Source of the DNA: Rhodobacterales bacterium RIFCSPHIGHO2_02_FULL_62_130
GTDB taxonomy: Bacteria; Pseudomonadota; Alphaproteobacteria; Rhodobacterales; Rhodobacteraceae
DNA length: 64,000 nt
NCBI GenBank assembly: GCA_001828855.1
Contig: MHZT01000038.1
Location: 1-64,000 of the forward strand
Direction: 5' to 3'
Below are positions 11,228 through 29,035 of the stretch, in pieces; position 1 is the stretch's first letter, and every line of letters begins with the position of its first letter. Below the pieces are notes generated by a model. It was not told the origin of the DNA. It saw only the letters and a list, made by a program, of their open reading frames with translations, and ran no database searches. Made by a program: the position numbers and the translations under genes.

Positions 11228-12358
11228 TTAGCCGATGGCCGTCGACCAAGCCTGATAGCCGTAGACCCAGTCGGCATTGCCCTTGCCCTTCAGCCATTCA
11301 TTGGCGAGCGAGGCGCGCTGGATCTCGGCGGTGCGCGGAATGCGCGCGCGCTCATAGGCTTGCAGCGCTGCGGGCAGCTCGGCACGGGTCTTGCCCTCGA
11401 CGGCGCGGGCCAGCACCACGGCATCCTCGATCGCCATGCATGCGCCCTGCGCCATGAAGGGCACCATCGGATGGGCCGCATCGCCCAGAAGGGTGATATT
11501 GCTCTGCGACCAGTTTTCCATCGGTTCACGTACATGCAGGGCCGAGCGGGTGACGCTGTCGCAGGCATCCAGAAGGGCGCGGGCATCTGGATGGAAATCG
11601 GAATAGGCGTCGCGCAGTTCGGCGATGTCGCCGGGCAGCGTCCAGCCTTCCTCGGTCCAACCTTCCTTGGGGGTGGTGGCGAAGACAAAGATCTCGGTGC
11701 CATGGGTCAGCGGGAAGGTGACGATCTGGCGGTCCGAGGTCGGCCCCCACCATTTGGTGAAGGCGTCAAGGTCTGGCAGGCCCGGTGCCCGGTCGCGCGG
11801 GAAGACCGCCCTCCACGAGACAAGGCCGGTGAAGCGCGGCGCATCCGGGCCAAAGATCGACCGGCGCACCGGCGAATGGATGCCATCGGCACCGATCACC
11901 AGGTCGAACTCCTGCCGGGAGCCGTCGGCGAAAAGCACCGCCGCACCTGTGGCCGTCAGCTCGGCCTCAGTCACCTTGGCATCCAGATGCAGGCTGCCGG
12001 AGGCGAGTTTCGCCTCCAGCGCGTCCAGGATATCGGCGCGGTGAATGGTCAGTTGCGGCGCGCCATAGCGTTCTTCGGCGGCGGCACTCATCGGCAGGCG
12101 AGAGGTTTCCTCGGCGGTGTCCCACATCCGGCTGATGCGGTGGGTCGGGCGGGCGGCATTGGCGCGCAGCGCCTCGCCCAGGCCCAGACGGTCCAGCGCG
12201 TGAACGGCATTCGGAGTCAGGTTCACATCGGCCCCGACCCGGCCATAGGCGCGCGACTGCTCGAACACCGCAACGTCATGCCCCTGCGCCTGAAGCGCGA
12301 TCGCCACCGCCATACCCCCCACGCCGCCGCCACATACCGCGATTTTCAGTCTTTCCAT
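11228..12358 (-). CDS. FAD-dependent aromatic hydroxylase (salicylate / 6-hydroxynicotinate monooxygenase type)
   Basis: 376 aa; GAGGAGG precedes the ATG. Class A flavoprotein monooxygenase motifs are complete: CGGGVGGMAVAIALQ near residues 9-23 for the FAD ADP moiety, VIGADGIHSPVRR near 155-167 (DG motif), and LLGDAAHPMVPFMAQG near 290-305 (GD motif). Such enzymes use NAD(P)H and O2 to hydroxylate a ring, sometimes with loss of a carboxyl group (NahG, NicC). Here it ends the leftward operon, 169 bp after the aldehyde dehydrogenase. It probably makes the dihydroxylated ring that the extradiol dioxygenase (17321-18241) opens. The substrate cannot be deduced; an N-heterocyclic acid is suggested by the nearby molybdenum hydroxylase. 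Confidence 0.85.
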   Translation of the reverse strand: MERLKIAVCGGGVGGMAVAIALQAQGHDVAVFEQSRAYGRVGADVNLTPNAVHALDRLGLGEALRANAARPTHRISRMWDTAEETSRLPMSAAAEERYGAPQLTIHRADILDALEAKLASGSLHLDAKVTEAELTATGAAVLFADGSRQEFDLVIGADGIHSPVRRSIFGPDAPRFTGLVSWRAVFPRDRAPGLPDLDAFTKWWGPTSDRQIVTFPLTHGTEIFVFATTPKEGWTEEGWTLPGDIAELRDAYSDFHPDARALLDACDSVTRSALHVREPMENWSQSNITLLGDAAHPMVPFMAQGACMAIEDAVVLARAVEGKTRAELPAALQAYERARIPRTAEIQRASLANEWLKGKGNADWVYGYQAWSTAIG

Positions 12359-12527
12359 GGTTTTCGCCTCCTCGAGTTACGTTCTGCCTGCGGGCAGGGT
12401 GGTTCAGTCATGAGTGGATCCGAAGGGCGGCCCGAAGCGGCTATTGGCCAGGGTGGCCCCGCCGTCGCGCGCCGGGCGGCGCTAGCTCTTCGCTTGGAAT
12501 GCCCGGACGGCGGTCGCCCGATAGCCA

Positions 12528-14021
12528 TCACGCGCCTCCTTGTGGCCAGCGCGCCCAGGGGTGGGGCTTTCCGGTCAGGTCAACGTAGAGCGACTTCTGC
12601 GCCATATAGGCCCGGATGCCCTCGCGCCCCTTCTCGCGGCCCAGGCCCGCGTCCTTCTCCCCGCCAAAGGGGGTTGATGCCGAGAATTGCTTGTAGGTGT
12701 TGATCCAGACTGTCCCTGTCTGCAACGCCCGCGCCACGCGCCAGGCCTTGGGAAAGTTGCGTGTCCAGATGCCGGCGGCCAGGCCATAGGCATTGTCGTT
12801 GCCCTGGGCGATCACGTCGGCCTCGTCCCTGAAGGGCAGTACGGCAAGCACCGGGCCGAAGACCTCGTCACGGCAGATGCTGGCCGCGTTGGTGACGCCC
12901 GCGAGGATCGTCGGAAGGTAATAGGCCCCCTTGTCGAAGAGGCCGCCCGTCGGCGCCGCGCCGCCGCACAGCACCCGGGCGCCTTCGGCAACGGCGCGAT
13001 CGACCATGGCGGCCACGCTGGCGCGGTGGTCGGGGTGGACCATCGGGGCGACCTGGGTTTCGGGGTCGAAAGGGTCGCCCAGACGCAAGGCACGGGTGGC
13101 GGTGACCAGGCGCGCCACGAAGCTGTCATAGATCGACTGCTGCACGAACAACCGCGCCCCGGCGATGCAGCTTTGTCCGGTCGAGGAAAAAACCCCGTAA
13201 AGGATGCCTGCGATGGCCAGGTCGGTGTCGGCATCCTCAAAGACGATGGTGGGCGACTTGCCCCCCAGTTCCAGTGAGACCGGCATCAGCTTTTCCGCCG
13301 CCTGCCGCGCCAGCATGCGACCGGTCTCAGTGCCGCCGGTGAAGCTGACCTTGCCGATGGCGGGGTGCTCGACCAGCAGGTTGCCGATCTCGCGCCCGGC
13401 GCCGGGCAGCACGCTGAACAGCCCCTTCGGAAGGCCCGCTTCCTCGATGATCCGCGCCAGTTCCAGCGCGACCAGCGGTGACCAGCTTGCGGGTTTCAGC
13501 AGCACCGCATTGCCCGCCGCCAGCGCCGGGGCCACCTTCTGCGCATCCGAGGCGATGGGCGAATTCCACGGCGTGATCGCGGCGACCAGGCCTATGGGGT
13601 CATGCACTGACATCGTCAGATAGTCGCCGCGCTGGGAGGTCAGGGCGTCATCCAAGGTTTCCAGCGCCGCCGCGACATAGCGGAAGGTCCCGGCGGCCGA
13701 GGCGGCCAGCGCCCCGGTTTCGCGCAGGGTCTTGCCGGTGTCGCGGGTCTGGATATGGGCGATGCGGGCGGCATTGGCCTCGATTCCGCCTGCGATGCGG
13801 TGCAATATGCGGGCGCGCTCATGCGACTTCAGCCCGCGCCAGGCGGGATCGGCTTGGGCCGTGATTGCGCTCGCAATGGCCCTTTCGCCATCGGCGCGGC
13901 TGGCGCCTTTCAGGACAAGGTTGACCGATCCGTCGGCGGGGTAGATCGAGGTAATCTCGGCCCCGCTGCCCCATTCCCACTCGCCGCCGATGAACAGGCG
14001 ACCGTCCGGCATTTCCGTCAT
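12528..14021 (-). CDS. NAD(P)-dependent aldehyde dehydrogenase
   Basis: 497 aa, full length for the ALDH superfamily. ITPWNSPIASDAQKVAPALA near residues 138-157 and FTGGTETGRMLA form the NAD site. LELGGKSPTIVF carries the general-base Glu, and FSSTGQSCIAGARLF carries the catalytic Cys, about 300 residues in. EVFGPVLAVLPF is the conserved C-terminal block. It should oxidise an aldehyde to an acid. It overlaps the upstream aspartate-dehydrogenase-like gene by 4 bp (ATGA), so they are coupled. By operon logic the substrate is a (semi)aldehyde released after ring fission. The annotation is safe; specificity is unknown. Betaine-aldehyde or 2-hydroxymuconic-semialdehyde dehydrogenases are the nearest named groups by general features. 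Confidence 0.9.
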   Translation of the reverse strand: MTEMPDGRLFIGGEWEWGSGAEITSIYPADGSVNLVLKGASRADGERAIASAITAQADPAWRGLKSHERARILHRIAGGIEANAARIAHIQTRDTGKTLRETGALAASAAGTFRYVAAALETLDDALTSQRGDYLTMSVHDPIGLVAAITPWNSPIASDAQKVAPALAAGNAVLLKPASWSPLVALELARIIEEAGLPKGLFSVLPGAGREIGNLLVEHPAIGKVSFTGGTETGRMLARQAAEKLMPVSLELGGKSPTIVFEDADTDLAIAGILYGVFSSTGQSCIAGARLFVQQSIYDSFVARLVTATRALRLGDPFDPETQVAPMVHPDHRASVAAMVDRAVAEGARVLCGGAAPTGGLFDKGAYYLPTILAGVTNAASICRDEVFGPVLAVLPFRDEADVIAQGNDNAYGLAAGIWTRNFPKAWRVARALQTGTVWINTYKQFSASTPFGGEKDAGLGREKGREGIRAYMAQKSLYVDLTGKPHPWARWPQGGA

Positions 14022-14830
14022 ATCGCCACCTCGCGCAGCCGGTTCAGCACCTCGCGCGCCACGGAATAGACTGTGGTGACCGAAGTCTTGGGGTTGTCGA
14101 CCGAAGGCTTGCCCTCGATGCGGATCGTGTAATCGGCGACCTCGGAGGTGACGCTGTACTCATGGATGTTGCGGCCGACCGCAGGGTCGGCGATCAGCCG
14201 GACGCGTGTCTCATCCCAGCCGATCCCGGCCAGGGCGAGGGTCGCGGCCACATTGGCATTCTTGGGATAAAGCGTGGCGGCGTCGCGGGCGGTACCTTCG
14301 AAGAACACCGCTTCCTCGGTCAGCCCCGCAAGATCGACCAGCGCCTCGGCTGGGGTGCCGGTCCAGGCCATGGGCGGCTTGCGCCCGGTATAGGTGACCG
14401 CGCTGATTCCGGCGGGGCGCAGCGCCGACAGGATGTCGACCCCGCCGATGGCCCCTGCGGGCAGGAGGAACCGGCTGCCGCCTTCGTGCGCGGCCCGGGT
14501 CAACTGGGCGTAAAGGCCCGCATCGGCCAGTGCGCCGATCGAGACGATCAGCGTCTCGATCCCGGCGCGCAGGACGGCGGTGGCATGCTGGGCCACGGCC
14601 TGATGCCCGGCGCATTCGACAACCAGATCCGGCCCCGCGGCTATCAGCTCCTCCGCCCTGGTCACCACACGCGCCGATGCGGGGAAGGTTGTGGCCAGTT
14701 CGCCTTCGACCCCTTCGGCGAATTCCGGCAGGCTGAGAACCGTCAGCGCCGATATCGCGGCCTGTTCCTGTGCCAGAACCTTCAGGAGCGTGCGGGCGAT
14801 GTTGCCGTAACCGATCAATCCTAGATGCAT
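14018..14830 (-). CDS. Aspartate-dehydrogenase-like (NadX-type) oxidoreductase
   Basis: 270 aa. The N-terminal Rossmann motif LGLIGYGNIARTLLKVL is near residues 3-19. VVECAGHQAVAQHA and LLPAGAIGGVDILSAL are typical of L-aspartate dehydrogenase, as is DPAVGRNIHEYSV, which holds the catalytic His. Known members oxidise L-aspartate to iminosuccinate with NAD(P). In this operon an amino-acid role is odd, so it may act on an amine or imine intermediate of a nitrogen-containing ring, or convert a product into the C4 pool. It is coupled to the aldehyde dehydrogenase downstream and begins 4 bp after the ThDP enzyme ends. Confidence 0.8.
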   Translation of the reverse strand: MHLGLIGYGNIARTLLKVLAQEQAAISALTVLSLPEFAEGVEGELATTFPASARVVTRAEELIAAGPDLVVECAGHQAVAQHATAVLRAGIETLIVSIGALADAGLYAQLTRAAHEGGSRFLLPAGAIGGVDILSALRPAGISAVTYTGRKPPMAWTGTPAEALVDLAGLTEEAVFFEGTARDAATLYPKNANVAATLALAGIGWDETRVRLIADPAVGRNIHEYSVTSEVADYTIRIEGKPSVDNPKTSVTTVYSVAREVLNRLREVAI

Positions 14831-14834
14831 GGCG

Positions 14835-16520
14835 TCAGACCTTGTTTCCAGCCGCTCCTGCGGGCGGACCCGAGAAGCTTTCGGCGAAGGGGCCGATGGC
14901 GACCATGTCGACCTCGATCATCTGCGGTCCGGCTGCGGCCAGCGCGGCATCCAGCGCCGCGCCGAAGTCCTCCACCGCGCGCACCACCCGGTGCGGCAGC
15001 CCGATCGAGGCGCAATGGGCGGCGAAATCAGGGGTGTGCAGCGCGGAATAGTGGTGTCGACCGTCGTATTGCGCGTCCTGGATGTTGCGGATCACGCCAT
15101 AGGCGCGGTCGTTCATCAGCACGTAGACCAGCGGAGCCTGTTCCTCGACGGCCGTAATCAGTTCGGCAATGCCCAGTTGCAGCCCGCCGTCCCCCAGAAG
15201 CGTCACCGCCTTGGGTCCGGTGCTGGCCAGCGCCGCCCCCACCCCCATCGCGGCACCCTGGCCGATGCCGCCGCCCAGGGCATGAACGCCAAGCCGGGCC
15301 TCGGCCAGACGGACATAGCGGTTGCCAAAGGTCGAGTTCGAGATCGTCACGTCGCGCACCCAGGCATGCCCCCCGGCGGCGATGCGGGCGGTCAGGGCCT
15401 CTGCCACCGCTTGATAGGGGCCAAGGCGGCTGCGGAGTGCGCCTTCGCTCTTGGCCCGGGCGGTGGCGATGTCAAAGCCGAGCTGTGGGTCGACCTGCAG
15501 TTTCTCGGGCAGCGCTACCAGCACGCGCGCCAGCGTATCGCGAGCGGAACCATGGACGAAGAGATCGACTGGATAGTTCCGCCCACCCTGCGCGGCATCA
15601 GCGTCGATCTGGATCAGCGGGCGTGGCAGGCGCATCTTGTTGTTCAGCGTTTCGTTGCCGCGCAGGCGCGAGCCGACGACGATCATCAGATCGCAAGAGG
15701 CATAGATCGCTTGCGCCTCGGGCGTCATGTTGAAGGCACCGAGGCTGGCAGGATGGTCCTCGGCCACCACGGCCCGGCCCTGGGTCGACGTAACGGCACC
15801 GAAGCCGCGTGCCACCAACGCCCGCGCCTCGGCCTCGGCCCCGCGTGCGCCACCGCCCAGCCATAGCATGGGGCGCCGAGCGGCAAGGATGCGCTCCACG
15901 ATGGCTGCGATGGCGTCGTCGCCGGCGCAGGGCGCTTGCGGGCGGGGCACCAGTATCTGCGGCGCGACGGACATGACAGTGCGCTGCACATCGACCGGAA
16001 TCTCCAGAGCCACCGGCCCGGTCGGGGCGGCCAGCGCCTGGGAAACGGCGGCGGTCAGCGCTCCGATGGCGCTGCCCGCGTCCCACATGCGGACATAGGC
16101 CTTGGACACGGCGCGCAGCATGTCGGGCTGGCGCGGCACGTCATGAATGGGTGCGCGGTCGCGGTCCATGAATTCGGTGTCGACGGTCGAGGTGATATGC
16201 AAAAGCGGTGTCCCCGCCGTCAGCGCCTCAACCTGGGCACCCGCCGCATTGCCGGCAGCCGTGCCGGTCGAGGTGAACACCACCCCCAGCCGCCCGGACA
16301 CCCGTGCCCAAGCATCGGCCATGTTCATCGCCCCCGCCTCGCCCCGTGTCGGTACAAAGCGGATGCGGCCCTGCCGCGCGATGGCATCGAGGATGGGCAT
16401 GTTGTGGATCGAGATCACACCGAAGACGGTGGTCACGCCAATCTCGGCCAGCCAGCGGGCGACGAATTCACCGACGGTTTCAGAGTTCGCTGCGGTCTGC
16501 GCAATCGTGTCGATTTTCAT
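14835..16520 (-). CDS. Thiamine-diphosphate-dependent enzyme (acetolactate synthase / benzoylformate decarboxylase superfamily)
   Basis: 561 aa with the full three-domain order. The N-terminal PYR domain (about 10-175) carries the activating Glu in TRGEAGAMNMADAWAR. The central domain spans about 190-330. The C-terminal domain carries the ThDP/Mg signature GDGGLQLGIAELITAV followed by LMNDRAYGVIRNIQD, near 430-465. No FAD-site feature or regulatory subunit is seen nearby, so biosynthetic acetohydroxyacid synthase is unlikely. The neighbours suggest decarboxylation or carboligation of a 2-oxo acid formed after ring cleavage, with the aldehyde product passed to the aldehyde dehydrogenase. The gene is tightly packed in the leftward operon, 15 bp after the SDR. 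Exact reaction unknown. Confidence 0.85.
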   Translation of the reverse strand: MKIDTIAQTAANSETVGEFVARWLAEIGVTTVFGVISIHNMPILDAIARQGRIRFVPTRGEAGAMNMADAWARVSGRLGVVFTSTGTAAGNAAGAQVEALTAGTPLLHITSTVDTEFMDRDRAPIHDVPRQPDMLRAVSKAYVRMWDAGSAIGALTAAVSQALAAPTGPVALEIPVDVQRTVMSVAPQILVPRPQAPCAGDDAIAAIVERILAARRPMLWLGGGARGAEAEARALVARGFGAVTSTQGRAVVAEDHPASLGAFNMTPEAQAIYASCDLMIVVGSRLRGNETLNNKMRLPRPLIQIDADAAQGGRNYPVDLFVHGSARDTLARVLVALPEKLQVDPQLGFDIATARAKSEGALRSRLGPYQAVAEALTARIAAGGHAWVRDVTISNSTFGNRYVRLAEARLGVHALGGGIGQGAAMGVGAALASTGPKAVTLLGDGGLQLGIAELITAVEEQAPLVYVLMNDRAYGVIRNIQDAQYDGRHHYSALHTPDFAAHCASIGLPHRVVRAVEDFGAALDAALAAAGPQMIEVDMVAIGPFAESFSGPPAGAAGNKV

Positions 16521-16535: not shown

Positions 16536-17324
16536 TTACATGAACCGAGCCAGGCCGCCTGACACGTCAAGCTGGGCCCCGGTGATGTAGCTGGCAGCCC
16601 GGCTGCCGAGGAATGCGATGGCGGCGGCGGCCTCGGCCGGATCGCCCAGGCGGCCGAGCGGGATGCCCTTGCGGCGCGCAAGATCGGCATACCAATCCTC
16701 GCGACTGACCGACTTGTCCTCGCGCTCGGCAAATCGGCGGGTCCATTGGCCCGATCCGATCAGCCCCATCAGCACCGCGTTCACCCGAACCTTGGGCGCA
16801 AGTTCCACGCTCAGCGACTTGACGAGGCTCTGAACCGCCGCTCGCGCCGAAGAGGTGCAGACCATATGCGGCTCGGGCTGGTAGGCCAGAAGCGAGTTGA
16901 CCACCACGATGGCGCCCGATGCCTCGGTCAAAAGCGGCAGGAAGGCGCGGATCGGGTGGATCTGGCTGAATAGCTTCAGGTCCAGTTCGGCCCGCCAATC
17001 TTCGTCCGTCGTGTCGGCGAAGGTGCTGATCCGGCCCTGACCAGCGTTGTTCACCAGAAGATCGCATTTGCCGAGACTTTGCTCCACGGCTGAGGCAAAA
17101 GCCTGATTGGCGGCAGGCTCTAGCACCGAAAACGCCTGCGCGAGCACCCGGTCTGCGCCGAAATCGCGCTTCAGCACGGCGGCTACATCCATCAGCCGTC
17201 CTTCGCCGCGTGCACAGATTGCGACCCGCGCGCCCTGCTCCAGCAAGAGCCGCGCCGTGGCGAGGCCGATGCCGGACGACCCACCGGTGACAACCGCCAC
17301 CTGACCTTCATATGGGGGGGTCAT
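16536..17324 (-). CDS. SDR-family protein lacking the canonical Tyr-Lys pair
   Basis: 262 aa. The ATG at 17324 overlaps the stop of the dioxygenase gene (ATGA); the much longer upstream frame is a shadow. The cofactor motif GGSSGIGLATARLLLEQGAR and NNAGQG are intact, and the end ITGAQLDVSGGLARFM is typical of the family. Where YxxxK is expected the protein reads TSSAR within PHMVCTSSARAAVQSLVKSL, so Tyr is Thr and Lys is Arg. The fold should be kept, but classical ketone/alcohol chemistry is doubtful. It may be a divergent SDR subgroup with another mechanism or a structural role. Its position between dioxygenase and ThDP enzyme ties it to the pathway. Confidence 0.8.
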   Translation of the reverse strand: MTPPYEGQVAVVTGGSSGIGLATARLLLEQGARVAICARGEGRLMDVAAVLKRDFGADRVLAQAFSVLEPAANQAFASAVEQSLGKCDLLVNNAGQGRISTFADTTDEDWRAELDLKLFSQIHPIRAFLPLLTEASGAIVVVNSLLAYQPEPHMVCTSSARAAVQSLVKSLSVELAPKVRVNAVLMGLIGSGQWTRRFAEREDKSVSREDWYADLARRKGIPLGRLGDPAEAAAAIAFLGSRAASYITGAQLDVSGGLARFM

Positions 17325-18241
17325 GGTTTGATCTTTCGCAATTCGGGAAATCCTGGGTCGGGGCGTCCCTGCATCACCGCGCGTTGCGCGGCGGTGGGGG
17401 GCCCTGCGGTCATCCATTGGTCCATCTTTTCGGGCACATCGCGCGGCCAGACCTGGGCCTCGTGCGTGGCCTCGTTGATCTGCTGCAATTCCGAGGTGAA
17501 CTCGATCACGAAGCCCGACGGAGAGACGAAATAGGCAAAGGGGTTGTCGCCCGGCCCATGCCGCCCCGGCCCCCATGTCGGCAGGATGCCCTTTTCCTTC
17601 ATCCGCCCGATGGAGCGCATGAATTCGTTGATCGAGGGCAGCTCGAAGGCCACATGGTTGATCGACGGATAATGCCCGCGCACCAGCGCGATCGAATGGT
17701 GGTCGGTAGCGCAGCGCAGAAAGACCATCTGATCGGCGCTGTAATCCGAGACCCGGAAGCCCAGAACCCGGCAGTACCAGGCCTCCACTCCCTCCATGTC
17801 GGGAGTGTTCAATACCACATGGCTGATCTTTCGCGGTCGCGCCCACTGGTCCAGCGGCTCAAGCCGGCGTTCCTCGCAGCGAAACCGCAGGCGGCGGTTG
17901 TCGGGGTCCAGCACCTCGAAGCCCCAGCCGCCCGCGAAGTCGGTGAAGGCGGCGGGAGGGCCCAGAACCTCGGCGCCCTCGGCCAGGGCCTGGGCGTGCA
18001 GGGCAGCCATGGCAGCGCGGTCGGGCATGGCGAAATGGACATACTCGATGCCATAGGTCGGCCCGTCCATCAGGCCATAGACAAAGGGCTCGGACCCGGT
18101 GCCACGCAGATAGACGATGCCGTCCTGATCCGCAGCGAAGGTCAGGCCCCAGTTGCCTTCGTAAAAGCCGCGCGTGTCGCGAATGCCGGGTGCGCGCATG
18201 ACAATGCCACGCAGGGAATGTACGCCTATCTTGTCGCTCAT
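17321..18241 (-). CDS. Type I extradiol ring-cleavage dioxygenase (two-domain VOC protein)
   Basis: 306 aa, two VOC modules as in BphC-type enzymes. In the second module the metal ligands are visible: His in KISHVVLNTPDM, His in SINHVAFELPS and Glu in GFVIEFTSEL. The catalytic His is in the CATDHHSIALVRG segment. The set is complete, so an active Fe(II) or Mn(II) dioxygenase is expected, opening a catechol-like or dihydroxylated heterocyclic ring next to its two hydroxyls. The gene starts 6 bp after the hydrolase gene ends and overlaps the SDR by 4 bp. Hydroxylase, dioxygenase and hydrolase together form a meta-cleavage core. Confidence 0.85.
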   Translation of the reverse strand: MSDKIGVHSLRGIVMRAPGIRDTRGFYEGNWGLTFAADQDGIVYLRGTGSEPFVYGLMDGPTYGIEYVHFAMPDRAAMAALHAQALAEGAEVLGPPAAFTDFAGGWGFEVLDPDNRRLRFRCEERRLEPLDQWARPRKISHVVLNTPDMEGVEAWYCRVLGFRVSDYSADQMVFLRCATDHHSIALVRGHYPSINHVAFELPSINEFMRSIGRMKEKGILPTWGPGRHGPGDNPFAYFVSPSGFVIEFTSELQQINEATHEAQVWPRDVPEKMDQWMTAGPPTAAQRAVMQGRPDPGFPELRKIKP

Positions 18242-18246
18242 GTCCG

Positions 18247-19074
18247 CTACTTCTGTTGCAGGGGGGAGGAAGTGCTTTGGTCTTGCGCCAGCAGCATCGC
18301 GGCCAGCGCCTGCGGTGCTTGCAGGTGGATGGCATGGCCTGCGCCCTGAACCTGGGTGAAGCCCCGTCGCATCGTCGCGGGAATGGCGGCATGGGCGCGG
18401 GCGGATTGGTCAGGCGGAGTGACGATATCGCCTTCGCCCACAATGACGGCGGTCAGCACGGTCAGGCGGGCGCAGTCGGCGGCCAGATCGCCAGAGGCCA
18501 GCATTCGCACGGCCTGGCCATAGCCCGGCAGGCGGACCTTGGCCATGCTGGCGGCCACGGCGTCGACCAGCGCGGGATTGGCTTCGGGCTCATGGATCAG
18601 GCGGGGCGCGCGGGCGGCGGCAAAGGCGGCGGCGCCATCGCGCTGCAACTCGGTCAGGCGGGCAGCCTGGGCGGGGGGCAGGTCGCCCTCAGGCGCCGCG
18701 CCGCCACCCTGCGCGCAAGCCGCCAAAGTCAGGCTCAGGACATGCCCGGGACGGAAAACGGCATAAGAGGCGGCGATCAGCGTGCCCAGCGAATGGCCCA
18801 ACAAGTGGAAATGGTCCAGCCCAAGGCGCTCGACCAGACCGGCCAGTGCGGCGGCGTAATCTTCCGCCAGCGGCCAATGCGCCCTCAGTGGGGTCGACCA
18901 GGCATAGCCGGGCGCATTCCAGGCGATCATGCGCCACCGGGGCAAATGCCCAGCCAGAGCGTCAAAAGACGAAGCCTCGGACCCGATTCCGTGCAGGGCC
19001 ACAAGCACCGGACCTGCGCCCGGACGTTCGCGCCAGCTTATCTCGCCGCCTGTGTGATCGACAAAGCCCGTCAT
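18247..19074 (-). CDS. Alpha/beta hydrolase, possible ring-fission product hydrolase
   Basis: 275 aa from the ATG at 19074; the longer frame to 19215 runs through a decayed SDR remnant and is rejected. VALHGIGSEASSF is the oxyanion region, HLLGHSLGTLIAASYA holds the nucleophile Ser, VIVGEGDIVTPPDQS holds the Asp, and VQGAGHAIHLQAP holds the His, so the triad is complete. Size and order resemble MhpC/BphD/PcaD-type hydrolases. Next to an extradiol dioxygenase, C-C bond hydrolysis of the meta-cleavage product, or amide/lactone hydrolysis, is the likely role. The start overlaps the TGA of the remnant upstream (ATGA). Confidence 0.85.
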   Translation of the reverse strand: MTGFVDHTGGEISWRERPGAGPVLVALHGIGSEASSFDALAGHLPRWRMIAWNAPGYAWSTPLRAHWPLAEDYAAALAGLVERLGLDHFHLLGHSLGTLIAASYAVFRPGHVLSLTLAACAQGGGAAPEGDLPPAQAARLTELQRDGAAAFAAARAPRLIHEPEANPALVDAVAASMAKVRLPGYGQAVRMLASGDLAADCARLTVLTAVIVGEGDIVTPPDQSARAHAAIPATMRRGFTQVQGAGHAIHLQAPQALAAMLLAQDQSTSSPLQQK

Positions 19075-21758: not shown

Positions 21759-21772
21759 ATCATCCACTCTGA

Positions 21773-21794
21773 TTTTGTTGCATCGTCAACAAAG
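21773..21794. promoter_or_regulatory. Palindromic operator 2, probably for MarR
   Basis: TTTTGTTG-CATCG-TCAACAAAG repeats the half-site of operator 1, with inverted 7-bp arms TTTGTTG/CAACAAA. It lies 23-44 bp before the two possible starts of the large hydroxylase subunit, so binding here would block transcription or early elongation. Confidence 0.7.
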
Positions 21795-21816: not shown

Positions 21817-24120
21817 ATGCACAGGGAGGACTTCGGTTTGGCGGGCGAGGGTGAAGGAATTCCGCAGGTCAATGCTCGCGAGAAGGTGCTGGGATGCGCC
21901 GTCTACGCCGGCGACATGCGCCTGCCACGCATGCTGCATGCCCGGATCCTGCGCAGCCCCCATGCACACGCCCGTATCACTGGGGTGGACTTGACCGCCG
22001 CCCTGGCCCTGCCGGGGGTCCGGGTCGCCGTCTCGGGCCGGGACGTTCCGGCGCGGGCCTGGGGTCTCAGCCACAAGCAGCAGCACGTGCTGGCCCGCGA
22101 CACCGTGCGTTTTGTCGGCGAAGAGGTCGCCGCCTTAGCAGCCGACACGCCCGAAATCGCCGATGCGGCATTGGATCTGATCCAGATCAGCTATGAACCT
22201 TTGCCTGCCCTTCTGGACCCTGCCGATGCTTTGACCACGGGCGCGCCGCTGGTCCATGCCGGCAGCAACCTCGCCGACGAAATCAACATCCAGCGCGGTG
22301 ACATCGACGCGGGCTTCGCCCAGGCCGACCTAATCCACGAAGAAACCTACCGCACCCATTCGCAATATCCGGGCTACATGGAACCGATGGCGACGGTTGC
22401 CGCCACAGATGCCAACGGGCGGTTGACGGTCTGGACCTCGACCCAGTCGGTCTTCCTGGCCCGGCAGCGGCTGGCCGAGGCGCTGGATCGTCCGGTCTCG
22501 TCGATCCGGGTGATCCAGGCGACGGTGGGTGGCGGCTTCGGCGGCAAGATCGTGGAAGAACGCAGCAGCGTGATCGCCGCCTTCCTCGCCACCCGCACCG
22601 ACCGCCCGGTACGCCTGGGCCTGACCCGGATCGAGGACATGCTGTCGGGTTGCCTCAGCGTGCCGGAAACCATCCGCCTCCGTCTGGGGATGCGGCGCGA
22701 CGGCACGATCACTGCGAAAGAGGTCGAAATTCTGGCCGACTGCGGCGCCTTTGCCGGGCTCGCGCCGGATATTCTGATCGTCTCGGCGATGCGCAGCGAC
22801 AACATGCAGCGTATCGCCAACATCCGCACCCGCGCCCGACTGGTCTACACCAACACCCTGCCGCGCGGGGCCTTCCGAGGCTTTGGTGGCACGCAAATGC
22901 TGTTCGCGCTGAACAGCCACCTGGCGACGATGGCCGAGAAGCTGGATCTTGACGTCTTCGACGTACACCGCCGCAACGCCATCGGTCCGGGCGATACCAC
23001 CGTCCATGGCTGGAAGATCGGCAGTTGCGCGCTGGAAGCCTGCCTGACGCATGTCCGCAAGGCCATCGACTGGGACGCGAAGCGCGCACGCCCCAAGGGT
23101 ACGGGTGTGCTGCGGCGCGGCCTTGGCGTGGCGGCGGCAATGCATGTCAGCGGCAACCGTACCATCGGCAACTGGGACGGGGCCACCATCCTTCTGAAAG
23201 TCAACGAGGATGGCCGCGCCGTGATCCTGACCGGCGAATCCGACATGGGGCAAGGTGCCTTCACCATGCTGACCCAAATCTGCGCAAAGGAACTGGGCAT
23301 CCCGCCAGCGCATGTCACCGTCCAGGCTCCGGATACCGACATCTCGCCCTTCAGCATCGGAACCCTTGCCTCGCGCGTTACGATCAACGCCGGGGCCGCC
23401 ATGGTCAAGGCGGCTCGGCAGGCGCGGAGCCAGATCCTTGCCGCAGCCGCCGAGAAATACAGCCACCCCGAGGACGACCTTGAGATCGCCGACGGAATGG
23501 TCCGCGCCCGGGGCACCGGCAATCTGACCGTGCCCTTGCCCGAGATCTGTCGCTATCACATCTTCCGCCATGGCGGCGAGGGCATCATCGTCTCCGCCAG
23601 CCATGACCCCGAGACCGTGCGCATGGATGCCGAGCATCGCGGCAACATCGCGCCGGGCTATTCCTTTGCCGCTCAGGCGGTCGAGGTCGAGGTCGATACC
23701 GAAACCGGGCAGGTCCGGCTGATCGAATCATGGCTGGCCGATGATTGCGGCGTGGCGATCAACCCGCTGGCCGTTCACGGACAGTCGAACGGCGCTGCGG
23801 TGCAATCGCTGGGCTGGGCGCTGTACGAGGAACCAAGGTTCGAGGGCGGGCAGCTTTCCAACGGCAACCTCGCCGACTACACGATGGCCACCGCCGATGC
23901 CGTGCCCCGGCTTCACAGCGCCATCGTTGACTCGTTCGAGCCGAATGGCCCTCTGGGGGCCAAGGGGGCCAGCGAAACCGCGATCCTACCTGGCGCACCC
24001 GCCATCGCCAATGCCGTCTATGAAGCGATCGGCCTGCGCATCACCGACCTGCCGATCACACCGGAAAAGATCCTGGCCGGCCTGGCCCGCGCAAAGGGAG
24101 CCCGCGATGCTGCCCTTTGA
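21817..24120 (+). CDS. Molybdenum hydroxylase large subunit (xanthine dehydrogenase / CoxL type)
   Basis: 767 aa from the ATG at 21817. A TTG at 21838 has a far better ribosome binding site (GGGAGG, 8 nt) and may be the true start, giving 760 aa. Motifs of the molybdopterin-cytosine-dinucleotide subunit are present: VGGGFGGKIVEE near 237, PRGAFRGFGGTQ near 350, and GPLGAKGASET near 712, whose Glu is the catalytic base. The carbon-monoxide-dehydrogenase Cys loop is not seen, so a true CO dehydrogenase is unlikely. The enzyme should hydroxylate a carbon next to a ring nitrogen, or an aldehyde, using water. It heads the MarR-linked operon and overlaps the FAD subunit gene by 14 bp. Confidence 0.9.
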   Translation: MHREDFGLAGEGEGIPQVNAREKVLGCAVYAGDMRLPRMLHARILRSPHAHARITGVDLTAALALPGVRVAVSGRDVPARAWGLSHKQQHVLARDTVRFVGEEVAALAADTPEIADAALDLIQISYEPLPALLDPADALTTGAPLVHAGSNLADEINIQRGDIDAGFAQADLIHEETYRTHSQYPGYMEPMATVAATDANGRLTVWTSTQSVFLARQRLAEALDRPVSSIRVIQATVGGGFGGKIVEERSSVIAAFLATRTDRPVRLGLTRIEDMLSGCLSVPETIRLRLGMRRDGTITAKEVEILADCGAFAGLAPDILIVSAMRSDNMQRIANIRTRARLVYTNTLPRGAFRGFGGTQMLFALNSHLATMAEKLDLDVFDVHRRNAIGPGDTTVHGWKIGSCALEACLTHVRKAIDWDAKRARPKGTGVLRRGLGVAAAMHVSGNRTIGNWDGATILLKVNEDGRAVILTGESDMGQGAFTMLTQICAKELGIPPAHVTVQAPDTDISPFSIGTLASRVTINAGAAMVKAARQARSQILAAAAEKYSHPEDDLEIADGMVRARGTGNLTVPLPEICRYHIFRHGGEGIIVSASHDPETVRMDAEHRGNIAPGYSFAAQAVEVEVDTETGQVRLIESWLADDCGVAINPLAVHGQSNGAAVQSLGWALYEEPRFEGGQLSNGNLADYTMATADAVPRLHSAIVDSFEPNGPLGAKGASETAILPGAPAIANAVYEAIGLRITDLPITPEKILAGLARAKGARDAAL

Positions 24121-24988
24121 CATCGCCACCCCTGGAACCCTGGCCGAAGCGCTGGCGCTTTTGGACCAGTACGACGAAGAAGCCTGCGTCTTTGCCGGCG
24201 GCACCGCGCTGGTCATCGCCTTGCGCCAGCGCATGATCGCGCCGCGTGTCGTCGTCTCGATCGGGCAACTGCCGGGCCTGTCTGAGATCACCTATTCCGA
24301 AGCCGAGGGCCTGCGTATCGGCGCGCTGGCACGCCATGCCCAAATCGCCGCGTCGGATCCGGTGCGCCGCCATTACCCGGTGCTGGCCCAGCTTTTCGGC
24401 GGTCTGGCCAATCCGCAGGTCCGCAACCAGGGCACGGTCGGAGGCAACCTCTGCTATGCCGATCCGGCCACCGACCCGCCCTCCTGCCTCCTGGCTCTGG
24501 GGGCCGAGGTGATCATCGCCGGGCGGATGGGCCAGCGCCGTTTGCCGATGCGCGCATTTCTGGTCGACTTCTTCACCACGGCGCTGGAGCCGGGCGAGAT
24601 TCTGGCCGGCATTCATATCCCTCCCCCTCAGCCGGGTGAGCATGCCCTCTACCGCCGCCACCTGCGCACGCCCGCCGAACATCGCCCGCTTGCCAATGTG
24701 GCGCTACGGTTTGTCGCGGGGCCTGATGGGCACAGCTGGAAGGACGTGCGGCTGGCCATTGGCGCCGCCGTGCCGGTGGCTCTGCCGATGGACGAGGCAG
24801 GCCGCGCACTGACCGGACGACCCATCACGCTTGCCGTTGCCGGCGAGGCCGCCGCTCTCGTGGCCGAACGACTGGAGCCGATCTCGGACAGCCGTGGCGA
24901 CGCGGCCTTCCGCACCGCCGTCGTGCGCGCCGCGGTCCGCCGGATCGTAGCCGAAGCCGCAGGCCTTGACTGGACGGAGACCACATGA
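24107..24988 (+). CDS. Molybdenum hydroxylase FAD-binding medium subunit (CoxM type)
   Basis: 293 aa from the ATG at 24107. FAGGTALVIALRQRM near residues 25-39 and RNQGTVGGNLCYADPATDPP near 108-127 are the two FAD-binding loops of this family. A CO-dehydrogenase flavoprotein C-terminal domain follows (about 175-285). It passes electrons from the iron-sulphur subunit to NAD or quinone. It overlaps both neighbours (14 bp and 4 bp), so the three subunits are coupled in the L-M-S order. Confidence 0.92.
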   Translation: MLPFDIATPGTLAEALALLDQYDEEACVFAGGTALVIALRQRMIAPRVVVSIGQLPGLSEITYSEAEGLRIGALARHAQIAASDPVRRHYPVLAQLFGGLANPQVRNQGTVGGNLCYADPATDPPSCLLALGAEVIIAGRMGQRRLPMRAFLVDFFTTALEPGEILAGIHIPPPQPGEHALYRRHLRTPAEHRPLANVALRFVAGPDGHSWKDVRLAIGAAVPVALPMDEAGRALTGRPITLAVAGEAAALVAERLEPISDSRGDAAFRTAVVRAAVRRIVAEAAGLDWTETT

Positions 24989-25461
24989 GCACCCATCGTA
25001 TCCACCTGACCCTGAACGGCGAGGCCATCGAGGCCGAAGTGCCGGGCAACCGCCTCCTGGCAGATTTCCTGCGCGATGACCTGGGCCTGACCGGCACCAA
25101 GCGCGGCTGCGAGACAGGGGTCTGCGGCGCTTGCTCGATCCACCTTGACGACACCGTCACCAAATCCTGCCTGTGTCTGGCCTTTCAGGCGGACGGCCGC
25201 CAGATCACCACGGTCGAGGGGCTTGCCGATGGCGCAACCCTGCATGTGCTGCAAGAGGCGTTCATGACCCATGGCGGCCTGCAATGCGGTTATTGCACAC
25301 CCGGATTCCTGATGGCCTCGGCAGAGCTTCTGGCCAGAAATCCGATGCCTTCCGGAGACGAGATCCGCAAGGCGCTTTCGGGCAATCTTTGCCGCTGCAC
25401 CGGCTATCAGGGCATCGTGGACGCAGTCGGCGCAGCAGCGAGGACCTTGCATGGAATTTGA
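24985..25461 (+). CDS. Molybdenum hydroxylase [2Fe-2S] small subunit (CoxS type)
   Basis: 158 aa. The N-terminal plant-type ferredoxin domain has CETGVCGAC near residues 43-51 and a further Cys in SCLCLAFQ. The C-terminal helical domain has QCGYCTPGFLMA and NLCRCTGYQGIV. All eight cluster ligands appear present. It carries electrons between the molybdenum centre and FAD. It starts with ATGA overlap on the medium subunit and overlaps the CoxG-like gene by 11 bp. Confidence 0.95.
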   Translation: MSTHRIHLTLNGEAIEAEVPGNRLLADFLRDDLGLTGTKRGCETGVCGACSIHLDDTVTKSCLCLAFQADGRQITTVEGLADGATLHVLQEAFMTHGGLQCGYCTPGFLMASAELLARNPMPSGDEIRKALSGNLCRCTGYQGIVDAVGAAARTLHGI

Positions 25462-26140
25462 GTTCCGCCACCACTTTGATGCCACGCCCGAGGCACTTTG
25501 GCAGGCTCTTCTGGACCCGGAGCGCGTTGGCGCCTGCGTGCCGGGCATGCAATCGGTCACTGTGATCAGCGATACCGAGTACCGCGCCCGCATCCGGGTG
25601 AAGATCGCCTTCATCAGCGCGCATTTCGACATCGGCACCGTGATCACCGAGACCGATCCGCCCCACCTTCTCCGCGCCGAAGCCAGCGGCGAGGACGGCA
25701 AGATCGGCAGTTCCGTCTCGGCCAAGGTCGAGATGCGGTTGACGCCCACAGGCGACGGGCAGACCGAGCTTTGCGTGAAGGCCAGGGCCGATGTGCTGGG
25801 GCGGCTGGGAACGCTGGGGTTAAATCCGATGCGTACCAAGGCCGAAGGCATGTGGGGCCAGTTCTGTGAGGCGCTGGCGGTGCAGCTATCCGGCGGTTCC
25901 CCCCCAGCCGCCTCTTCTTCGTCGCCGGCACCTGCCACGCGCACTGCTGCAAAGGCACCAGTTCCGCAGACCGCTCAGCCAGGCCGGTCAGGATGGCTGT
26001 CCTGGTTTGCGCCTCGATCCGAGGTCTTTCGGGTCGAAGTCGAAAGGAATGGCAATCGCGTTGTCCTGAGCTGCCCGCCCGATCAGGCCGAGCTTTGCCT
26101 GGGCTGGCTTGATCGGCACCTGCAAGGAGGAAGGTCATGA
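25451..26140 (+). CDS. CoxG-like SRPBCC protein, accessory to the molybdenum hydroxylase
   Basis: 229 aa. Residues 1-145 form a START/SRPBCC fold: MEFEFRHHFDATPEALWQAL, then LDPERVGACVPGMQSV, both characteristic of CO-dehydrogenase subunit G. An Ala/Pro/Ser-rich linker (about 150-180) leads to a C-terminal segment containing GWLSWFAP, which may touch the membrane. CoxG proteins anchor the hydroxylase to the membrane or deliver it to quinones. Its place directly behind L-M-S supports that role. The C-terminal 50 residues are not recognised. Confidence 0.85.
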   Translation: MEFEFRHHFDATPEALWQALLDPERVGACVPGMQSVTVISDTEYRARIRVKIAFISAHFDIGTVITETDPPHLLRAEASGEDGKIGSSVSAKVEMRLTPTGDGQTELCVKARADVLGRLGTLGLNPMRTKAEGMWGQFCEALAVQLSGGSPPAASSSSPAPATRTAAKAPVPQTAQPGRSGWLSWFAPRSEVFRVEVERNGNRVVLSCPPDQAELCLGWLDRHLQGGRS

Positions 26141-26319: not shown

Positions 26320-27318
26320 ATGCGCAAGAGTTCAGTACTGGCTGTCAGCTTGGTCACCACAGCACTTCTCGGCTTTGGCGGAGCAGTAGTGGCGCAAGAC
26401 AAGACAGAACTCACGGTGGCCCTGCCGGTCAACCTCTGCCTCGCCAACTGGCCCTTCTATGTGGCCGCCGGCGAAGGCCTGTTTGCCGCTGAAGGTCTTG
26501 AAGTAACGATGCAGGGTCTGGACGGCTCGTCCGCCGCGATCCAGGCGATGCTGGCGGGTCAGGCCCAAATCGCAGTTTCCGCCCCGGCCGACATTCTGGC
26601 CGCTACCGGTGCGGGTGCTGATCTGACCGGCTTTTACAGTTTCTACCAGTATCTGCCGTTCCGCGTCGTGACGGCTGGGGATTCGCCGGTTGCATCGCTG
26701 GCCGACCTCAAGGGCGCGACCATCGGCATCACCAGCGTCTCGGGCGGCGAGGCGACCTATCTGCGCTCGGTCATGGCCTTCTCCGGAATGGCGGAAGGCG
26801 ACTATGAGGCGTTGGCTGTGGGAGAGGGCGGCATGGCGGCCTCGGCAATGACCGACGGCACGATTAAGGCCTTTTCGGCCTCGTTCGTGGACGAGATCAT
26901 CTTCGGCGGCATGGGCTTTGCCTACAAACCCCTTGTAGCCGAAGGCTATCCGGGCACCGCAGGCCTGCTTCTGGCCGCCGACTCGGGCTTTGTGGCCGAC
27001 AATGCTTCAGTGATCGAAGGGCTGGGCCGCGCCCTGGTGAAGGCAACTGCGGCAGGTCTGGCCAACCGCGACCTGGTCGTTGCCACCTGTGGTGCCGCCG
27101 CCCCGCACGAAACCGAAGATCCCGGTTTCGCGGGGGCTGTGCTGGATGGCGTCGATCCCTTGTTCACCCTGACTGACGCCGCCGCCGGGCCGATGGGCCA
27201 CGTCGACGAGGCGACTTGGGCCAGCTACCGTGACCTGATCATCTCGATCGGCGCAGCAGGCCCGGATGCCGCCAAGACTGAAGTATCCAACGCCTTTGTC
27301 GAAAGCTGGAACAAATGA
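26320..27318 (+). CDS. ABC importer periplasmic binding protein (NMT1/TauA type)
   Basis: 332 aa with a signal peptide (basic MRKSS, hydrophobic core, cleavage near AVVAQ). The mature protein has the NMT1/THI5-like fold. LANWPFYVAAGEGLFAAEGL near residues 45-64 and LAGQAQIAVSAPADIL are its usual signatures. Relatives bind nitrate, sulphonates, pyrimidine precursors or aromatic acids. Here it presumably captures the substrate of the neighbouring hydroxylase. It overlaps the ATPase gene by 4 bp. Confidence 0.9.
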   Translation: MRKSSVLAVSLVTTALLGFGGAVVAQDKTELTVALPVNLCLANWPFYVAAGEGLFAAEGLEVTMQGLDGSSAAIQAMLAGQAQIAVSAPADILAATGAGADLTGFYSFYQYLPFRVVTAGDSPVASLADLKGATIGITSVSGGEATYLRSVMAFSGMAEGDYEALAVGEGGMAASAMTDGTIKAFSASFVDEIIFGGMGFAYKPLVAEGYPGTAGLLLAADSGFVADNASVIEGLGRALVKATAAGLANRDLVVATCGAAAPHETEDPGFAGAVLDGVDPLFTLTDAAAGPMGHVDEATWASYRDLIISIGAAGPDAAKTEVSNAFVESWNK

Positions 27319-28178
27319 CTGAAGCACTCGGCCGCAATCCGGGTTCGGCCGAGGCTGAAGGTGGGGCGGCACGCCGCCCCACCGACAGTGATGGTCAGCC
27401 CTCTGTCCGCATCCGCGACCTGTCGCGCACCTTCAGCAGCGATGGCAAGACGATCCACGCCCTGACAGACATCTCGCTCGATGTGGCGCCGGGGGAATTT
27501 GTTGTGCTTCTTGGCCCCTCGGGCTGTGGAAAGTCGACGCTTCTGAACATCATCGCGGGCCTTCTGCCTGCAACCACCGGAACTGCCGAGGTTGGCGGCC
27601 AGTCTGTAACAGGAGTGCCGCAGGGCATCGGCATGATGTTCCAGAAGGCGGTTCTGCTGCCCTGGCGCACCGTGCGAGAGAACATCCTTCTGCCGATCGA
27701 GATCGCCGAGGGCCGCCGCGCCGCCGCCGCCGCAACCCAGCGGGCGGACGAGCTGCTGGACCTGGTCGGGCTGACGGGCTTTGCCGAGCGTATGCCGAAC
27801 GAGTTGTCGGGCGGCATGCAGCAGCGCGCCGCCATCTGCCGGATGCTGATCACCGAACCCGAGATCCTTCTTCTGGATGAACCTTTCGGCGCGCTGGACG
27901 AATTCACCCGCGAACACATGAACATGCAGATGTTGGACCTGCAAAACCGCCTGGGACGCACCGCGATTCTTGTCACGCACAGCATCTCGGAAGCGGTGTT
28001 CCTGGCCAACCGGGTCATTGTGATGAGCGCGCGCCCCGGCCGCATCGCGGGCGTGGTCGAGGTCGACCTGCCGCGCGACCGCACCCCCGATATCGTTACC
28101 ACGCAGGCCTTCCAGCATTTCGTCGAGGAAGCCCGGCAGATGCTTCACATCGGCTATTCGATGGAGAAATCCGCATGA
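27315..28178 (+). CDS. ABC importer ATPase (SsuB/TauB type)
   Basis: 287 aa. Walker A is LGPSGCGKSTLLNIIAGLL near residues 70-88, the Q-loop is IGMMFQKAVLLPW, the signature LSGGMQQRAAI, Walker B LLLDEPFGALDEFTR and the switch His in ILVTHSISEAVF. The first 30 residues are an unstructured extension. It powers uptake by the permease encoded directly downstream (4-bp overlap). Confidence 0.93.
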   Translation: MTEALGRNPGSAEAEGGAARRPTDSDGQPSVRIRDLSRTFSSDGKTIHALTDISLDVAPGEFVVLLGPSGCGKSTLLNIIAGLLPATTGTAEVGGQSVTGVPQGIGMMFQKAVLLPWRTVRENILLPIEIAEGRRAAAAATQRADELLDLVGLTGFAERMPNELSGGMQQRAAICRMLITEPEILLLDEPFGALDEFTREHMNMQMLDLQNRLGRTAILVTHSISEAVFLANRVIVMSARPGRIAGVVEVDLPRDRTPDIVTTQAFQHFVEEARQMLHIGYSMEKSA

Positions 28179-29035
28179 GCAATGCATCCAGCAAATCTTC
28201 CGCCCAGCCCAAGGGGCCCTATGCCGGATCCGGGCAGGACTCATGGCTTGAACGCCTGCCCTCATCGGTTCTTGTCGGTGGCTCCTTCTTGATCCTGCTT
28301 GCAACCTGGGAAGCCGTTGTCGTTCTGGGCTGGGTCCCGGAACTGGTGTTGCCGCGTGCCAGTTCGACCGCTGTCGCCCTCTATAATCTGCTCGTCGATT
28401 TCGCGACGGGCGGCACGGTCTGGGTCAACTACCGGGTCACACTGATCCAGGCAGCCTTGGGGCTTTTCTTTGCCGGCATCATTGGCTTTGTCATCGGTGC
28501 CCTGATCGCGGAAACCACTTTTGGCCGCCGAGTGATCCAGCCCTATATGGTGGCCCTTTACGCCGCGCCGAAAGTGGCGCTGGCCCCGATCTTCGTGGCC
28601 TGGTTCGGCTTTGGCATGACACCAAAGGTCGTGATGGCCGTAACCATCGCCTTTTTCCCGGTCATGGTCGACACCGCCGCAGGCTTGGCAGGGGTGGACG
28701 AGGACAGCGACAAGCTGTTCGCTACCATGCGCTCCAACCGCTGGCAGCGGTTCTTCAAGTTGAAGCTTCCTAATGCCCTGCCATTCATCTTCGCCGGGCT
28801 GAAGAGCGCGGGCGTGCTGGCTCTGATCGGCACTCTTGTGGGCGAGTTCTCGGGCGGTGGGCGCGGTGTTGGCGTGCTGATCGAGACCGCAAGCATGCGC
28901 TTCAACCTGGACGTGGTTTTCGCCCATGTGATCCTGCTCTCGACTATCGCCTTCGCACTTTACTGGGCGATCGACCGGATCGAGGCCCGCGTGGTGTTCT
29001 GGCGCAAGTCGGGGTTCATCCCGGCAGAGTCCTAA
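28175..29035 (+). CDS. ABC importer permease (SsuC/TauC type)
   Basis: 286 aa with about six membrane segments. The coupling-helix EAA-like loop is in the segment around TMRSNRWQRFFKLKLPNALP, near residues 190-210. It completes a binding protein-ATPase-permease set in the MarR-linked operon, so uptake and first hydroxylation are probably co-expressed. The last gene of the operon, followed by a strong hairpin. Confidence 0.92.
   Translation: MSNASSKSSAQPKGPYAGSGQDSWLERLPSSVLVGGSFLILLATWEAVVVLGWVPELVLPRASSTAVALYNLLVDFATGGTVWVNYRVTLIQAALGLFFAGIIGFVIGALIAETTFGRRVIQPYMVALYAAPKVALAPIFVAWFGFGMTPKVVMAVTIAFFPVMVDTAAGLAGVDEDSDKLFATMRSNRWQRFFKLKLPNALPFIFAGLKSAGVLALIGTLVGEFSGGGRGVGVLIETASMRFNLDVVFAHVILLSTIAFALYWAIDRIEARVVFWRKSGFIPAES

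Follow-up and report, generated by a model that had tools for sequence, protein, structure and literature searches.

In the classical kynurenate pathway of Pseudomonas (Hayaishi and co-workers; EC 1.14.99.2, 1.3.1.18 and 1.13.11.10), C7-C8 dihydroxylation, dehydrogenation and C8-C8a cleavage are followed by side-chain reduction, decarboxylation to an aldehyde, and oxidation to 5-(2-carboxyethyl)-4,6-dihydroxypicolinate. For other fused rings, meta-cleavage normally uses a hydratase-aldolase. Here we analyzed a catabolic island at positions 11,228-29,035 of a 64,000-nucleotide stretch (hereafter, the window) of contig MHZT01000038.1 (70,133 bases) from Rhodobacterales bacterium RIFCSPHIGHO2_02_FULL_62_130. 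With a probability of roughly 0.55, this island allows a hydroxylated quinoline-2-carboxylate to be taken up and fully degraded along the lower half of the classical kynurenate route.

Reports that bacteria oxidize kynurenic and xanthurenic acids date from 1961-1963, according to the reference list of PMC5770815 (Hayaishi 1961; Dagley and Johnson 1963, on kynurenic, xanthurenic and picolinic acids). The same paper states that partial degradation of kynurenic acid has been seen with Pseudomonas and Aerococcus extracts, and that kynurenic acid given orally to rabbits is converted mostly to quinaldic or 8-hydroxyquinaldic acid (PMC5770815). Judging by titles cited in PMC11354673 and PMC5770815, glutamate is formed from kynurenate by Pseudomonas extracts. 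Three genes of the set analyzed here, Acinetobacter A1S_0956-0958, were 2.2- to 2.4-fold up on mucin, with no substrate named in the relevant part of that report (PMC5757984). No paper assigning genes to the kynurenate route or to this set was found in the partial literature covered, which leaves most subscription journals outside. The core gene set described below occurs in many bacteria and may provide the genes lacking so far for a degradation route known from biochemical work of the 1960s.

The island consists of two blocks (Table 1). The minus-strand block encodes a cupin, an alpha/beta hydrolase, a VOC extradiol dioxygenase, a short-chain dehydrogenase/reductase (SDR), a thiamine diphosphate (ThDP)-dependent enzyme, an aspartate dehydrogenase, an aldehyde dehydrogenase (ALDH), and a flavin adenine dinucleotide (FAD)-dependent hydroxylase. 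The plus strand carries the genes for an IclR regulator, CoxL, CoxM, CoxS, CoxG, and an ATP-binding cassette (ABC) importer. All genes named in the original prediction for this region are present as open reading frames (ORFs) without internal stops and with agreeing NCBIfam and Pfam families, and each block has its own regulator, as had been claimed, i.e., IclR (plus strand) and MarR (minus strand), the latter divergent from coxL. From ALDH through the hydrolase the genes are separated by -4 to +15 bases, with 250 bases between the cupin gene and the hydrolase gene downstream of it, and 169 bases from the ALDH gene to the FAD gene that follows it. Like the classical kynurenate pathway, the core (the ThDP enzyme, SDR, hydrolase, ALDH, aspartate dehydrogenase, extradiol enzyme and cupin) has a candidate gene each for extradiol cleavage, reduction, decarboxylation and aldehyde oxidation, as well as candidates for the release of the C5 and C4-N units. 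Unlike it, the window lacks a Rieske kynurenate 7,8-hydroxylase and a diol dehydrogenase and has FAD and molybdenum hydroxylases instead. Given that the defining first step is absent, we did not file the window as a whole kynurenate pathway.

We infer the order and all steps of the proposed route from gene family and context. The ABC importer would take up the quinoline acid, the CoxLMS(G) molybdenum hydroxylase would add the 4-hydroxyl (8-hydroxyquinaldate to xanthurenate), and the FAD monooxygenase would add the 7-hydroxyl (xanthurenate to 7,8-dihydroxykynurenate). The extradiol dioxygenase would open the benzene ring between C8 and C8a, the SDR would reduce the side-chain double bond, the ThDP enzyme would decarboxylate the 2-oxo acid to the aldehyde, and the ALDH would yield 5-(2-carboxyethyl)-4,6-dihydroxypicolinate; these last three enzymes would occupy the place usually taken by a hydratase-aldolase. 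The cupin may then cleave the pyridine ring by oxygenating the C4-C5 bond, the alpha/beta hydrolase may cut the amide to give 2-oxoglutarate and aminofumarate/iminosuccinate, and the aspartate dehydrogenase would reduce iminosuccinate to aspartate. The lower operon would be controlled by IclR and the molybdenum hydroxylase by MarR. We consider the lower pathway likely to run as proposed, the FAD enzyme to have an even chance of being the xanthurenate hydroxylase, and the assignment of the molybdenum enzyme as 4-hydroxylase of 8-hydroxyquinaldate to be more tentative than either.

Aspartate dehydrogenase interconverts iminosuccinate and aspartate, and the pyridine half of the substrate (the carboxyl, C2, C3, C4 and the nitrogen) has the skeleton of iminosuccinate, which would give this enzyme a role. 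It has the family features of NadX (PF01958, 112 bits; PF03447, 70 bits; above the NF009827 cut-off), a conserved H223, and TM1643 as a solved relative. The metal ligands of the VOC dioxygenase (H141, H196 and E247) are conserved at ≥97% in 59 aligned sequences, the hydrolase residues S95, D216 and H247 are invariant in 27 sequences (the window plus 26 of the 69 matches to the hydrolase), and C285 and E251 of the ALDH are conserved. The SDR, ThDP and ALDH genes lie together in one gene run. Taken as a set, the extradiol enzyme, SDR, ThDP enzyme, ALDH and aspartate dehydrogenase would point to kynurenate or xanthurenate and not to pyridine, simple quinoline or indole acids. The gene sets of the beta-hydroxyaspartate and ectoine pathways do not match, and both candidates were rejected. 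The same lower chemistry could instead act on a different bicyclic N-heteroaromatic, e.g., another hydroxyquinoline carboxylate, hydroxylated by the molybdenum and FAD enzymes. The gene-context tests do not specify the ring substituents, and other molybdenum hydroxylases beside the cluster in Cupriavidus EM10 and at loci L058 and L059 make several entry substrates plausible. We regard this alternative as unlikely, as an aspartate dehydrogenase or RidA together with the ThDP-ALDH pair would fit a 2-carboxy-4-hydroxy pyridine half specifically.

To profile the distribution of the core, genome contigs were searched with a profile of 11 aligned ThDP enzymes (the window and 10 of 30 ThDP loci). The best 80 of 560 confirmed places and six plasmid loci gave 86 loci, 57 of which extend 7.5 kb or more to each side of the ThDP gene (the full-flank set). 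The loci were picked via the ThDP enzyme and many are closely related, so the counts are not independent. With cut-offs applied, the core partners in the full-flank set were the SDR (n = 55), hydrolase (n = 54), ALDH (n = 51), aspartate dehydrogenase (n = 50), extradiol enzyme (n = 49), and cupin (n = 43). The core recurs in Rhodobacteraceae, Nitratireductor, SUP05, Vibrio, Caballeronia, Cupriavidus and Klebsiella. The original prediction had proposed import and degradation of an N-heteroaromatic compound, with molybdenum and FAD hydroxylases feeding a meta-cleavage set; this part stands. The gene-neighborhood search does not support a set particular to this plasmid: the seven-gene core is widespread and it is the entry module that varies. 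Clusters of Klebsiella (L120, L144), Acinetobacter (L145) and Caballeronia SBC1 (L121) have the same core with Rieske entry, and are annotated only as SDR, AspDH, ALDH, ThDP, cupin, VOC/glyoxalase and Rieske proteins. They differ from the window in having an MFS transporter where it has an ABC importer. Neither an FAD entry enzyme nor a related molybdenum hydroxylase was found in L120 and L121, and none is annotated in L145. Among other Caballeronia, M1242 has the FAD enzyme and NK8 the molybdenum enzyme. Nitratireductor sp. OM-1 has the Rieske and FAD modules together, and the soil isolate Paracoccus sp. MA just the Rieske module in the stretch covered.

Other genes were noted near the cluster or in the same genomes. 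RidA, of the imine/enamine deaminase family, is present in 7 of the 86 loci, and two of these, of Roseomonas type (L075 and L083), lack the aspartate dehydrogenase, as expected if an imine is released. In two SUP05-type loci a kynureninase gene follows the ALDH gene at distances of 5.7 and 6.4 kb. Tryptophan dioxygenase is encoded in 11 of 32 genomes with the ThDP gene and in 59 of 353 others (p 0.017), and in 8 of the 12 best ThDP genomes compared with 62 of 373 (p 0.0002, the top-12 cut being chosen post hoc); both values are uncorrected for kinship and genome size, and the enrichment was set aside. RidA-family genes were noted in or beside the cluster at L110, L075, L059, L068, L058, L083, L060 and L159. 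Sulfatase-like genes occur in 11 of the 86 loci (L069, L073, L074, L077, L078, L081, L093, L094, L095, L103 and L105), which are of the FAD/TRAP and SUP05 types; the enzymes may release a sulfate ester, and their recurrence suggests such an ester as a source in nature.

The full-flank loci fall into those with Rieske only (n = 24), Rieske and FAD (n = 20), FAD only (n = 12), and neither (n = 1); the FAD enzyme is thus linked to the core in 32 of the 57. The sole locus with neither is Klebsiella L120, whose fetched stretch is short and whose record has a Rieske gene just outside it, beside a second SDR gene. This second SDR, which has the usual YxxxK, unlike the core SDR, tracks the Rieske gene as a diol dehydrogenase would: both are present in 43 loci, Rieske only in 1, the SDR only in 2, and neither in 11. 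The two SDR-only loci are L120 and L095, the latter with its Rieske gene truncated where the fetched stretch ends, and the second SDR is absent from 11 of the 12 FAD-only loci. The same core is therefore fed either by a Rieske enzyme with a second SDR or by the FAD enzyme alone. On a substrate already bearing one hydroxyl, a single hydroxylation gives the same catechol as a Rieske dioxygenase and diol dehydrogenase, and such interchangeable modules are predicted if kynurenate (dihydroxylation) and xanthurenate (one hydroxyl) converge. In the window, neither a Rieske gene nor a second SDR gene was found in the island, and the window's genome has no Rieske relative above 31%, the best one spanning half its length. 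An FAD enzyme without these partners points to entry at xanthurenate or another 8-hydroxy compound, and xanthurenate is probably the entry substrate here. In Vibrio nigripulchritudo pVNTG1 (L118, ~19,280-20,350), the match to the FAD monooxygenase is split in two and has no gene annotated, and the gene may be broken there.

The best solved relatives of the FAD enzyme are tropone 2-monooxygenase (8rqh, 268 bits) and 6-hydroxynicotinate 3-monooxygenase NicC (258 bits), from which it differs in accompanying a meta-cleavage core. All six plasmid records that match it (E 1e-80 or better) are among the 29 with the ThDP enzyme, the two genes being 4-13 kb apart. The closeness to NicC, together with a hydrolase that is closest to meta-cleavage product hydrolases, would also suit the degradation of a monocyclic pyridine or indole acid, which the tests suggested by the original prediction had in view. 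We consider this very unlikely, as the reductase-decarboxylase-dehydrogenase trio is not known to have a role in the pyridine and indole routes and no maleamate or hydratase-aldolase gene is among the identified island genes.

In the plus-strand block, the large molybdenum, FAD and 2Fe-2S subunits are encoded in one operon, as in the xanthine oxidase family, and none of CoxL, CoxM and CoxS reaches an NCBIfam equivalog cut-off. Like quinaldate 4-oxidoreductase and other quinoline-type molybdenum hydroxylases, this is a three-subunit enzyme of that family beside apparent quinoline-acid catabolism. Close relatives of CoxL are few. Plasmids yielded one record at 56.7%, with the next 14 among the matches listed below 40% and 63 lower-ranked records beyond. 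Apart from its own genome, none of 385 genomes of the class had a match above 41% (E 1e-150 or better), and 398 genomes of the phylum had two, at 63% each (E 1e-230 or better). By these searches the MarR-CoxLMSG block belongs to a rare molybdenum hydroxylase subfamily. The CoxG ORF, which has no NCBIfam hit, was named by position and by relatives (34-50%) that follow CoxS in L079, L149, G681 and G556, the one in L149 being annotated as SRPBCC.

Each of the three relatives that the CoxL searches turned up comes from a genome with pathway genes, and in two cases these lie within 20 kb. A further CoxL, in L079 (56%), was found via the ThDP gene and is hence biased. Overall, members of the subfamily (56-63%) and pathway genes are no more than 20 kb apart in L079, L149 and G681; G556 has both in its genome, with MarR-CoxLMSG on one contig and the core with the Rieske module on another. 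In G681 and G556, MarR relatives at 53% adjoin CoxLMSG. It is conceivable that the two blocks are unrelated, the molybdenum hydroxylase and importer serving another compound and lying beside the core by chance. They have separate regulators and separate predicted operators, and the window importer ATPase and permease are just 40-43% like those accompanying the core in relatives. Two gene orders make this account quite unlikely, and we rejected it as the leading reading on their basis. In Caballeronia NK8 plasmid pNK84, the same CoxLMSG comes after Rieske, ThDP and VOC genes, all of them on one strand (the full core is on pNK83), and in G681 the core genes, MarR-CoxLMSG and the FAD gene lie within 24 kb, with MarR-CoxLMSG between the core and the FAD gene; no hydrolase match was found in the stretch of G681 that was fetched. 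The molybdenum hydroxylase and the meta-cleavage set seem to be associated by more than chance. The molybdenum enzyme is found with either entry module; a step before ring hydroxylation would fit all cases, i.e., 4-hydroxylation of quinaldate or 8-hydroxyquinaldate. A different molybdenum hydroxylase (CoxS 42-48% and CoxL 23-30% to those of the window) adjoins the cluster in L058, L059 and L158.

A number of observations weigh against degradation of a hydroxylated quinoline-2-carboxylate by the kynurenate-type lower route. The closest solved relative of CoxL is 4-hydroxybenzoyl-CoA reductase (430 bits) rather than a quinoline hydroxylase (CoxL scores 220 bits with quinoline 2-oxidoreductase), and in relatives the molybdenum enzyme accompanies Rieske (L079 and L149) or both modules (G681), not FAD alone. 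The core SDR lacks the classical YxxxK, with T157 and R161 instead at ≥97% in 82 sequences, and the cupin keeps H98, H100 and E104/E105 while Arg144 replaces the usual third His. (The cupin alignment has 24 rows, the window and 23 of 33 matches, and leaves out L065, L092, L093, L094, L104, L108, L112 and three plasmid loci.) With an SDR without its catalytic pair and a cupin minus one metal ligand, the roles given to both are guesses. All six other core genes occur together in just 34 of the 57 full-flank loci (with cut-offs applied), the aspartate dehydrogenase is absent from 7 of the 57, and five of the seven RidA loci have RidA and aspartate dehydrogenase both. Only 2 of the 86 loci have a kynureninase gene close to the cluster, and none a tryptophan dioxygenase gene. 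The SUP05 sulfatase accompanies the Rieske module with no close FAD enzyme, which a simple xanthurenate-8-sulfate story does not explain. No recognizable IclR site was found at the window FAD gene, set apart as it is from the ALDH gene. Pseudomonas aeruginosa probably carries related genes. Its kynU deletion accumulates kynurenic acid to 100 μM (PMC4938989), a build-up unexpected of an active kynurenate degrader under those conditions.

Inspection of the intergenic regions indicated different predicted operators for the two blocks. The pattern TGAAC-N5-GTTCA occurs once in the whole window, at 20198. In 58 loci with an IclR gene at ≥44% there are 47 exact copies, 17 of which (in 17 loci) lie within 500 bases upstream of iclR, a region making up 2.4% of the area (binomial p 5e-16, uncorrected for kinship, the exact pattern having been chosen after a looser scan). 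Among the 86 loci scanned, 17 of the 41 with the FAD gene have a predicted site in the 300 bases ahead of it; the corresponding figures are 10 of 34 for the small first gene of the Rieske operon and 7 of 34 for the cupin gene. Because the FAD gene and iclR are frequently divergent, many sites count for both. A general IclR site before TRAP genes was dropped, as it holds in 3 of 16 loci only. A search for the MarR-type palindromes upstream of the window coxL found none in L149, L079, or the stretches of G681 and G556 that were fetched. A shared operator was rejected after a 16-mer comparison of six gaps, in which the best match was 14/16 and none was judged above chance, with no shuffle control. 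Given the different predicted operators, co-regulation of the two blocks has no sequence support.

The island is plasmid-borne, as predicted: type IV secretion domains occur in 7 of 10 ORFs tested at 29569-45020, and the backbone matches a Gemmobacter aquarius plasmid. This plasmid matches the window at 97-6937 and 29744-54000 at 87-90%, i.e., on both sides of the island, with 91% of the query covered in three pieces in the latter region. The best plasmid match to 10900-29100 covers just 26% of the query at 77% identity. A relaxase and a ParA/VirC1-like ATPase are encoded at 506-4142. The gene set on this conjugative plasmid most likely enables the host to feed on tryptophan-derived quinoline acids, e.g., xanthurenic acid. 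A complete-looking Tn3 element (6938-10638) with transposase, resolvase and 38-base inverted ends (36/38 identical) directly adjoins the island, and the backbone match ends at its left end. Between the element and the island, a minus-strand ORF (10821-11297) has an NCBIfam match confined to the C-terminal part of a LysR/GcvA-type regulator, with no Pfam hit at E 1e-5, and may be a gene remnant. The plasmid also has genes for an Nramp transporter and a heavy-metal P-type ATPase (49106-55630).

Table 1 Features of the island, with the activities proposed from family and context.
Feature	Position	Strand	Basis
FAD-dependent aromatic monooxygenase; proposed xanthurenate 7-hydroxylase	11228..12358	-	NCBIfam/Pfam, solved relatives, linkage to core
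Aldehyde dehydrogenase; proposed oxidation of 2-formylethyl side chain	12528..14021	-	PF00171, 535 bits
L-aspartate dehydrogenase family (NadX-like); proposed iminosuccinate reductase	14018..14830	-	NF009827, 268 bits (cut-off 226)
ThDP-dependent enzyme (PRK07064); proposed 2-oxo acid decarboxylase	14835..16520	-	NF005470, 766 bits (cut-off 495)
SDR (PRK07062); proposed reductase of ring-fission product	16536..17324	-	NF005468, 385 bits (cut-off 266)
Type I (VOC) extradiol dioxygenase; proposed 7,8-dihydroxykynurenate 8,8a-dioxygenase	17321..18241	-	Families and metal ligands
Alpha/beta hydrolase	18247..19074	-	Best solved relatives are meta-cleavage product hydrolases
Small cupin; proposed pyridine-ring dioxygenase	19325..19894	-	PF07883, weak similarity to quercetinase QueD
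Predicted IclR operator ATGAACGTTATGTTCAT, TGAAC-N5-GTTCA at 20198	20197..20213		Between cupin and iclR
IclR-family regulator, start codon uncertain	20216..21145	+	PF01614, PF09339
MarR-family regulator	21156..21653	-	PF01047
Two MarR-type palindromes TTGTTG-N6-CAACAA, predicted operator	21737..21793		Upstream of coxL
Molybdenum hydroxylase large subunit CoxL	21817..24120	+	Family match
Molybdenum hydroxylase FAD subunit CoxM	24119..24988	+	Family match
Molybdenum hydroxylase 2Fe-2S subunit CoxS	24985..25461	+	Family match
CoxG/SRPBCC protein	25451..26140	+	Position and relatives
ABC importer substrate-binding protein, SsuA/ThiY-like	26320..27318	+	Family match
ABC importer ATPase	27315..28178	+	Family match
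ABC importer permease	28175..29035	+	Family match

Beyond this island, we tentatively propose, at somewhat less than even odds, that the seven-gene core is the missing gene set of the 1960s kynurenate route in Alpha-, Beta- and Gammaproteobacteria, including SUP05. Its entry modules would match the substrate, i.e., Rieske for kynurenate, FAD for xanthurenate, and the molybdenum enzyme for quinaldate or 8-hydroxyquinaldate, with an Arg-substituted cupin opening the pyridine ring and the iminosuccinate caught by aspartate dehydrogenase or RidA. If true, this would provide sequences for the enzymes of a route known to us only as activities, and would show how bacteria dispose of kynurenic and xanthurenic acids, which are bioactive animal tryptophan metabolites, and of their gut-dehydroxylated forms. 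It would also give a physiological role to a catabolic aspartate dehydrogenase that is otherwise hard to explain in these operons, and the modular entry would make the substrate predictable from gene content in many genomes.

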